Shown one piece after another: positions 22,979 to 24,381 of a DNA stretch of 64,000 nt. The DNA is taken from assembly GCF_001905095.1 (NCBI RefSeq), contig NZ_LWLS01000105.1, forward strand, positions 124,001-188,000, read 5' to 3'. The notes under the pieces were generated by a model, which was not told where the DNA came from, searched no databases, and worked only from the letters and a program-made list of their open reading frames with translations. The stretch's first letter is position 1. Each line of letters begins with the position of its first letter. The stretch comes from Micromonospora sp. CB01531 (GTDB lineage: Bacteria > Actinomycetota > Actinomycetes > Mycobacteriales > Micromonosporaceae). The position numbers and the translations under genes were made by a program.

Positions 22979-23305
22979 GTGATCGAGGTGTTGTACTTCG
23001 ACGGCTGCCCGAGCCATGAGGTCTTCATGCCGCGCCTGCGGGCGCTGCTCGACGCCGCTGGAATTGAGGATCCGATCCACGAGCAGGCGGTGGAGACTGA
23101 CGTCGACGCCCAGGCGCACCGGTTCCTCGGCTCGCCGACGCTGCGGATCGACGGCGTGGACGTCGACCCGACGGCCGCGCACCCCACGGACTACGGCCTG
23201 CAGTGTCGGCTCTATCCGACCCCGGATGGTGTTCGTGGTACCCCGCCCGATGAGTGGATCCTGGCTGCCCTGCAGCGCCGGGGGGCCGCCTTGACGGCCG
23301 ACTGA
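22979..23305 (+). CDS. Thioredoxin-like small protein (CPxx-type)
   Basis: 108 residues from GTG 22979, behind GGGGAGGG. The first strand runs directly into a thioredoxin-like active site, VLYFDGCPSHEVFMPRLRALL, where only the first Cys of the usual CxxC is kept. A cis-Pro-like SPTLRIDGVDV strand follows, and the C-terminal GLQCRLYPTPDGVRGTPP has a second conserved Cys. This is the family of small thioredoxin-fold proteins often annotated near mercury or thiol genes. The stop overlaps the rhodanese start (TGATG), so the two proteins are made together, suggesting a sulfur- or thiol-transfer role. Confidence 0.75.
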   Translation: MIEVLYFDGCPSHEVFMPRLRALLDAAGIEDPIHEQAVETDVDAQAHRFLGSPTLRIDGVDVDPTAAHPTDYGLQCRLYPTPDGVRGTPPDEWILAALQRRGAALTAD

Positions 23306-24000
23306 TGGTCACCCGGATCGAGTTGCCGCGGCTGCGTGCGTTGCTTGACGCGGGCGCCCAACTCATCGAGGTGTTGCCCGCGGCCGAGTACGCCGACCAG
23401 CATCTGCCCGGCGCGCACAACATCCCTCTCAAGACCATCAGCCCGCACACGGCTGCAGGCCTCGACCGCGCCCGCCCGATCATCGTCTACTGCTGGGACG
23501 GCCTTTGAGACGTGAGCCCACGAGCCGCGTGCCGGCTCGAGTCCCTCGGATTCGCCGATGTCTACGACTACGCGGCCGGCAAGGTGGACTGGCTTGCGCA
23601 CAACCTGCCCATCGAGGGCGCTGCGGCCAGCTCACCTACCGTGGGTAGCTGCCTGCGCCACGACGTTCCCACCGCCCGCCCGGAGGAGGCGCTCGCCGCC
23701 GTTCGGGCCCGCGTCGACGCCTCTCCGTACCGATTCGCCCTTGTTGTCGCCGGTGACCGTACTCTGCTCGGCCGACTCCGGCACGCCGCCCTCGAAGCCG
23801 CCCCCGGCACCGCTTTGGCCCACGAGGCGATGGAGTCCGGCCCTTCGACGCTGCGTCCCCACGTAGCCTTGGCCGCCGTCGAGTCCCACCTGCGCGACCA
23901 CCACCTCACCTACGCGATCATCACCGATCCGGAAGGCCACTTGCTGGGTACGGTTCACCGAGATGACCTGACCGGAACGACCGGCTCACCTTCTCGCTGA
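23305..24000 (+). CDS. Rhodanese-CBS protein interrupted by one in-frame TGA (codon 68)
   Basis: From ATG 23305 a single frame of 232 codons runs to 24000, broken only by TGA at 23506-23508. Residues 1-67 are the first part of a rhodanese domain, up to the loop VYCWDGL with the catalytic-position Cys. After the TGA the same frame resumes with DVSPRAACRLESLGFADVYD and the rest of the rhodanese fold. It then adds two CBS motifs (about 114-225: DVPTARPEEALAAV and LTYAIITDPEGHLLGTVH). From memory, homologues have Cys at the TGA position. Options: selenocysteine, a nonsense mutation, or reinitiation at GTG 23512 producing two polypeptides. A hairpin sits 12 bases after the TGA. Translationally coupled to the thioredoxin-like gene. 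Confidence 0.75.
23521..23539 (+). promoter_or_regulatory. Hairpin just downstream of the in-frame TGA, possible SECIS-like element
   Basis: CGAGCCG (23521-23527) and CGGCTCG (23533-23539) pair perfectly over 7 bp around the loop CGTGC. The loop GU lies 21-22 bases after the TGA, within the distance range of bacterial SECIS elements. GC-rich coding DNA forms such hairpins by chance, so this is only suggestive. Confidence 0.3.
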
Positions 24001-24045: not shown

Positions 24046-24381
24046 CTACGGGCGGCCTTGGTGGTGAGGTTCGGGCTGGCACGTGGTGCAGAACCGGGTC
24101 GCCGGCCGAAGCGCCAGCCGCTCGATGGGGATGTCGCCGCGGCACTCCTCGCAGGTTCCGTAGCGGCCCTGTTCCAGGTAGTGCAGCGCCCGGGCGATGT
24201 CGCCCAGCGCCTGCCGCGACGCGGCGGTCAACGCGGACGCGGCCGCAAGGTCCGTCCGGTCACCGGGCAACTGGCGGGCCTGTCGGGCCAGCAGCGCCAG
24301 CTGGGTGCTGTGCCGCTCGTACTGCTCCTCCAGGACGATCCGCAGCACACCGAGCTCGTCCTGCCGGCTCACCACGTACAC
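24046..24381 (-). CDS. TraR/DksA-type C4 zinc-finger protein
   Basis: 111 residues from GTG 24381 with AGGAAG upstream. The N-terminal two-thirds is helical (LRIVLEEQYERHSTQLALLARQ, a probable coiled coil). The C-terminus has the DksA/TraR zinc finger GTCEECRGDIPIERL...FCTTC with four cysteines. DksA-like proteins reach into the RNA polymerase secondary channel. In actinobacteria many small members of this family exist, and their target is usually not established. An acidic coiled-coil tip as in true DksA is not obvious. A terminator for the neighbouring oxidase gene lies just upstream. Confidence 0.8.
   Translation of the reverse strand: MYVVSRQDELGVLRIVLEEQYERHSTQLALLARQARQLPGDRTDLAAASALTAASRQALGDIARALHYLEQGRYGTCEECRGDIPIERLALRPATRFCTTCQPEPHHQGRP

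Follow-up and report, generated by a model that had tools for sequence, protein, structure and literature searches.

Zhang et al. 2026 (PMC13188914) list five forms of rhodanese-like selenoproteins (forms 1-5) in their Table 1, where CBS domains are not mentioned. These forms contain selenocysteine (Sec) in a rhodanese domain, as does the protein described here, but none of them is listed as a CBS fusion. The present protein is encoded in a window of 64,000 nucleotides, the whole stretch of Micromonospora sp. CB01531 DNA that was analyzed. Form 1 (reference WP_010941598.1) has the motif UxxS, which reads U-D-V-S in the window protein; going by the motif description alone, form 1 could be related to this protein. 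Form 5 (TsoB) is characterized by UxxxxU, whereas the corresponding motif here is C-x4-U, with U-x4-U in eight Chloroflexota loci, and the TsoB model NF045694 gave 27.1 bits against a cut-off of 805. Likewise, the form 3 model NF041203 (rhodanese-related (seleno)protein, CxU) scored only 17.6 bits against a cut-off of 115, and the motif here has the C-x4-U spacing. For forms 1, 2 and 4, the comparison covered their catalogue descriptions. No model of NCBIfam release 20.0 was passed by the protein, the best selenoprotein models staying far under their cut-offs, and none of the papers searched combined a selenoprotein with rhodanese and CBS domains in such a way.

The two halves of the protein also resemble described non-selenoproteins. 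BH2092 from Bacillus halodurans (PDB entries 3nhv and 3o3w) shares 28% identity with residues 1-110 and contains YCWGPAC, a C-x4-C arrangement whose two Cys align with Cys63 and Sec68. However, BH2092 is a single-domain protein without Sec and without a CBS pair, and the titles of its entries give no function. The CBS-pair regulators MgtE, OpuCA, AcuB and DarB share the fold of the C-terminal half, while in the window protein this pair is fused to a rhodanese domain. In addition, SaoL (a MerB-like organometallic lyase) and HgcA/HgcB are listed in PMC13188914 as selenoproteins linked to organomercury chemistry. In some lineages the gene described here also stands beside MerB-type genes, but in this case Sec is located in the rhodanese-CBS partner.

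A rhodanese-CBS gene with one in-frame UGA

The original prediction described a rhodanese-CBS frame interrupted by a single TGA directly after YCWDGL, and both the coordinates and the Pfam matches agree with this description. The frame starts with the ATG at 23305-23307 and its stop codon ends at 24000; the TGA at 23506-23508 lies directly 3' of the YCWDGL codons, and there is no further stop or frameshift within the gene. All features are collected in Table 1.

Table 1. Features of the rhodanese-CBS locus in window coordinates, and homologous loci of particular composition or context.
Feature	Position or loci	Strand	Basis
DF family (seleno)protein gene, thioredoxin-like FDGCP motif, Cys form	22979..23305	+	NCBIfam NF049942
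Rhodanese-CBS gene, predicted selenoprotein	23305..24000	+	231 residues with Sec68; open frame with one TGA
Rhodanese domain, residues 10-98	23332..23598	+	Pfam PF00581 and fold match
Cys63 (TGC), rhodanese loop catalytic position	23491..23493	+	invariant Cys in alignment A1
UGA predicted to be read as selenocysteine 68	23506..23508	+	TGA 114/117 loci, TGC 3/117
Putative bSECIS hairpin, arms 23521-23527 and 23533-23539, loop CGUGC	23521..23539	+	pairing, codon freezing, slid-partner control
CBS pair (Bateman module), residues 109-225	23629..23979	+	PF00571 in relatives and fold match
Double-TGA loci	L124, L125, L134, L135, L141, L150, L152, L156		TGAs 15 nt apart, one downstream hairpin
Loci with the gene in or beside mer genes	L186 (NZ_AP018921.1), L082, L087, L088, L045, L091, L149		MerR, MerB, MerA

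Residues 10-98 match the Pfam family Rhodanese (PF00581) with an E-value of 4.8e-13 and 49.9 bits (gathering score 22.2). The CBS match of the window copy alone is weak, covering residues 175-222 with 23.3 bits, just below the gathering score of 24, and PF00571 was matched by all 23 of the 23 members of alignment A1. The AF2 model of the read-through protein has a pLDDT of 92 and is confident everywhere except for the last residues. The closest solved structure to residues 1-110 of this model is BH2092 (3nhv, Z 18.3), while residues 109-229 resemble the CBS pairs of MgtE, OpuCA, AcuB and CBSX (Z 15-17).

Immediately upstream, the DF gene scores 107.2 bits with NF049942 (cut-off 70). Its stop codon TGA (23303-23305) overlaps the rhodanese ATG in the sequence TGATG (23303-23307); therefore, the two genes are probably co-translated. 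The same arrangement is repeated in the other Micromonospora carriers. No Sec was found in the adjacent DF gene in the 33 loci checked; although the family is named for a Sec member, all 33 neighboring copies contain Cys. Downstream, a DksA/TraR C4-type zinc-finger gene (24046-24381, minus strand) is convergent with the rhodanese-CBS gene.

The codon aligned with 23506 is TGA in 114 of the 117 fetched homologous loci and TGC in the other three (L076, L077 and L111), whereas TAA, TAG or a sense codon for another amino acid occurs in none of the 117. Since the search sets overlap, some records were found more than once; 99 loci are distinct in the sequence around the site (96 TGA, 3 TGC). The homologues span Actinomycetota, Chloroflexota and other phyla, with identities down to approximately 40%. 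Among 101 relatives searched, a congener with 85% protein identity has the same TGA, and eight of 160 genomes of the genus contain an orthologue: six of these have the TGA, at 72-100% identity, and two lack it, at 45-47%. Approximately 50 homologues with exactly one TGA, mostly 38-59% identical, were found in 396 sampled Actinomycetota genomes. Scanning 84,980 species genomes yielded 80 additional loci, ranging from Micromonospora, Pseudonocardia, Thermoleophilia and Rubrobacter through to Chloroflexota and Dormibacterota; Rokubacteria, Acidobacteria, Bacillota and Proteobacteria were each represented by one MAG carrying that label. A Nonomuraea homologue from a plasmid collection (L189) has Cys at the site.

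In the Cys homologues, the rest of the frame is continuous. The original prediction expected homologues to have Cys at this position, which holds for those without TGA; however, the sampled rhodanese-CBS family appears from its codons to consist mostly of Sec members, and Cys forms are rare. On the tree, Cys replaces Sec68 twice among Sec members, as judged by SH-aLRT support only and with an unsure root. The family is unusual in its Sec majority and few Cys forms, with two changes to Cys needed on the tree. It adds a widespread selenoprotein to phyla with few catalogued ones.

Many independent genomes share the TGA, which rules out a read error. One substitution, TGC to TGA, would suffice to produce a pseudogene, but the recurrence of this TGA across 114 loci from several phyla refutes a nonsense mutation for the family. 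Moreover, both halves of the gene are under purifying selection, with dN/dS of 0.32-0.47 5' of the TGA and 0.19-0.43 3' of it, and the window gene has no other lesion. Decay of the gene is accordingly the explanation to which we assign the least credence, close to none.

The second alternative is the synthesis of two proteins: translation would stop at the UGA after 67 residues of rhodanese, and a separate CBS protein would begin at GTG 23512. In RefSeq, Pseudonocardia autotrophica and P. broussonetiae are indeed annotated with two CDSs, and the second codon after the TGA is ATG in 59 of 96 homologues. However, most of the remaining homologues have a codon for Leu, Ile or Val there, and the first product would be cut through the active-site loop of the rhodanese fold, without the helices and strand that follow. 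It would also leave unexplained why the site is always TGA among the stop codons and never TAA or TAG, why Cys homologues form a single frame, why the hairpin described below is frozen and why a clade with two TGAs exists. We therefore regard split synthesis as very improbable. Both this alternative and the nonsense mutation had been named in the original prediction.

A conserved hairpin and the Sec machinery

The hairpin that had been predicted 12 bases downstream of the TGA was located as described. It has the sequence CGAGCCG/CGTGC/CGGCTCG with a 7-bp stem, and the distance from the UGA to the loop is 19 nt. According to the bSECIS model of PMC13188914, the loop comprises 3-9 nt, the upper stem 4-16 bp and the spacing 16-37 nt, with a G within the first two loop positions that is mostly followed by G or U. 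The window hairpin lies within these limits, with 7 bp, 19 nt and the 5-nt loop CGUGC, in which G at position 2 is followed by U.

Of the seven stem pairs, six are intact in 99-100% of the 96 distinct TGA homologues, while the arms are disrupted in all three Cys homologues. Synonymous codon bias was evaluated at 106 sites where a four- or six-fold degenerate amino acid is conserved. The seven most biased sites are residues 71, 72, 73, 74, 75, 77 and 78, which form the stretch from just past Sec68 through the hairpin. R77 is encoded by CGG in 92 of 92 homologues, A74 by GCC in 93 of 96, A75 by GCG in 93 of 96 and L78 by CTC in 91 of 96; the top codon thus has a share of 95-100% at these four positions, whereas elsewhere its median is 52% and its highest value 78%. 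Since any synonym would serve the protein equally well, these nearly frozen codons point to selection on the hairpin as an RNA element.

Shifting the 3' arm in a slid-partner control reduced pairing from 97% to 20-46%. G-U variants occur in the stem, and in L068, L070 and L071 one C-G pair is replaced by a compensatory U-A. Because the stem hardly varies, classical covariation is thin, and the shuffle control was modest, with 28 of 500 shuffles reaching the observed score. For 23500-23560, the RNAfold minimum-energy structure is a different hairpin, paired in another way (z -1.9), and the conserved hairpin appears if folding begins at the UGA. As the minimum-energy fold of this one sequence can prefer a competing hairpin, the case made here is one of conservation and not of energy. 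An Rfam scan of the locus gave no match near the gathering score, and the hairpin was therefore judged by codon freezing and pairing counts.

The original prediction proposed a search of the genome for selA, selB, selC and selD, and all four genes are present in the 9.24 Mb source genome. One cluster contains selC, selA (404 bits) and selB (263 bits), with the tRNA-Sec scoring 74 bits and carrying the anticodon TCA according to ARAGORN, and selD is located at C1:526997 (383 bits). The cluster lies beside fdhA of an adjoining formate dehydrogenase cluster, a gene that itself contains a UGA in frame, within the diagnostic IUHS context. This fdhA (QARIUHS; L012, G000 C13:112000-131000) is split by a naive ORF caller.

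Of the 46 genomes with the TGA gene, 43 contain selB and/or tRNA-Sec above the cut-off. Neither was found in G440, G296 and G351, which are TGA-carrying incomplete MAGs (73-94% complete). The phylum-wide tRNA-Sec search under-detects, with few candidates scored per genome; therefore, selB and a narrower re-search were used instead. In Micromonospora, tRNA-Sec was detected in 147 of 160 genomes, and G568 has two such genes above the cut-off. The distant Cys form occurs in two Micromonospora genomes (L076 in G507 and L077 in G588) despite the presence of tRNA-Sec and selB in both. As tRNA-Sec is nearly universal in this genus, Cys-form genomes included, the presence of the machinery does not separate Sec from Cys forms there.

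A full-length product would equally be expected if the UGA were read as another residue, such as Trp, or were leaky without selenocysteine. However, homologues lacking the TGA have Cys at the site and never Trp, the selected hairpin is lost together with the TGA, and the genome encodes the Sec machinery. Such decoding is thus very improbable. Selenocysteine, as originally proposed, is instead supported by the shared TGA, by Cys in the non-TGA homologues, by the conserved hairpin and by the machinery. On this comparative evidence, we are highly confident that 23305-24000 is an intact selenoprotein gene with UGA 23506-23508 read as Sec. SelB, bound to the hairpin and carrying Sec-tRNA-Sec, would decode this codon, and the predicted product of 231 residues would combine an N-terminal rhodanese domain containing Cys63 and Sec68 (C-x4-U) with a C-terminal CBS pair.

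Active-site loop and mercury-gene context

The TGA had been placed in the rhodanese active-site loop, which is correct, and Sec68 (Cys63 + 5) occupies the final position of this loop. This placement needs one refinement, as Cys63, which follows the strand IIVYC and which we take to be the canonical rhodanese catalytic residue, is still encoded by TGC. Eight Chloroflexota loci have TGA at both positions (YUxDxLUD, U-x4-U). These loci cluster together on the tree (with an unsure root and SH-aLRT as the only support) and possess the same single hairpin, approximately 34 nt from the first UGA. Because this distance is still within the published range, one hairpin might serve both UGAs. Since exchange between sulfur and selenium is seen at both ends of the motif and BH2092 has C-x4-C, Cys63 and residue 68 may constitute a redox pair. 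The family offers a natural C-x4-C, C-x4-U and U-x4-U series in one active site, which makes the benefit of Sec over Cys directly testable.

Among 116 loci, 32 have DF homologues nearby, 18 have MerR-type regulators and 10 have MerB-like ORFs. The curated cut-offs were passed in Pseudonocardia by MerA (504 vs. 454 bits, L082) and MerB (256 vs. 193 bits, L087), and in a second family by MerB (207 vs. 193 bits, L045). On a P. autotrophica plasmid typed as mobilizable, the order is merR, merB-like, DF and rhodanese-Sec-CBS. The window itself contains DF but no mer genes. The apparent linkage to mer genes is limited to a minority of loci (MerB-like ORFs at 10 of 116), and in these lineages it would tie selenium to mercury handling.

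With respect to function, we consider the chances about even that the product is a thiol/persulfide redox protein with a selenenylsulfide center, that a ligand of the CBS pair controls it, and that some lineages have come to use it in mercury handling. Cys63 and Sec68 would form a reversible selenenylsulfide, or else a persulfide center, and the protein would act as an oxidoreductase or sulfurtransferase for thiols or persulfides, with its activity set by an adenylate bound to the CBS pair. Recruitment into mercury or organomercury resistance operons would have followed in some lineages; there, the selenolate could accept Hg(II), hand it on or shield the thiol pool. A broader proposal, which we advance tentatively and with less conviction, is that of a new Sec-dominated rhodanese-CBS family, widespread in Actinomycetota and Chloroflexota, that would perform selenium-based (organo)mercury/persulfide chemistry under adenylate control, with one Chloroflexota clade in which a single hairpin may serve two UGAs and give a U-x4-U diselenide.

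In RefSeq, the Pseudonocardia plasmid homologues are annotated as two adjacent genes, rhodanese-like and CBS domain-containing (L186, 8001-8669; L187, 438-1103). As the RefSeq records examined show two truncated genes, such rhodanese and CBS fragments should be merged in annotation.
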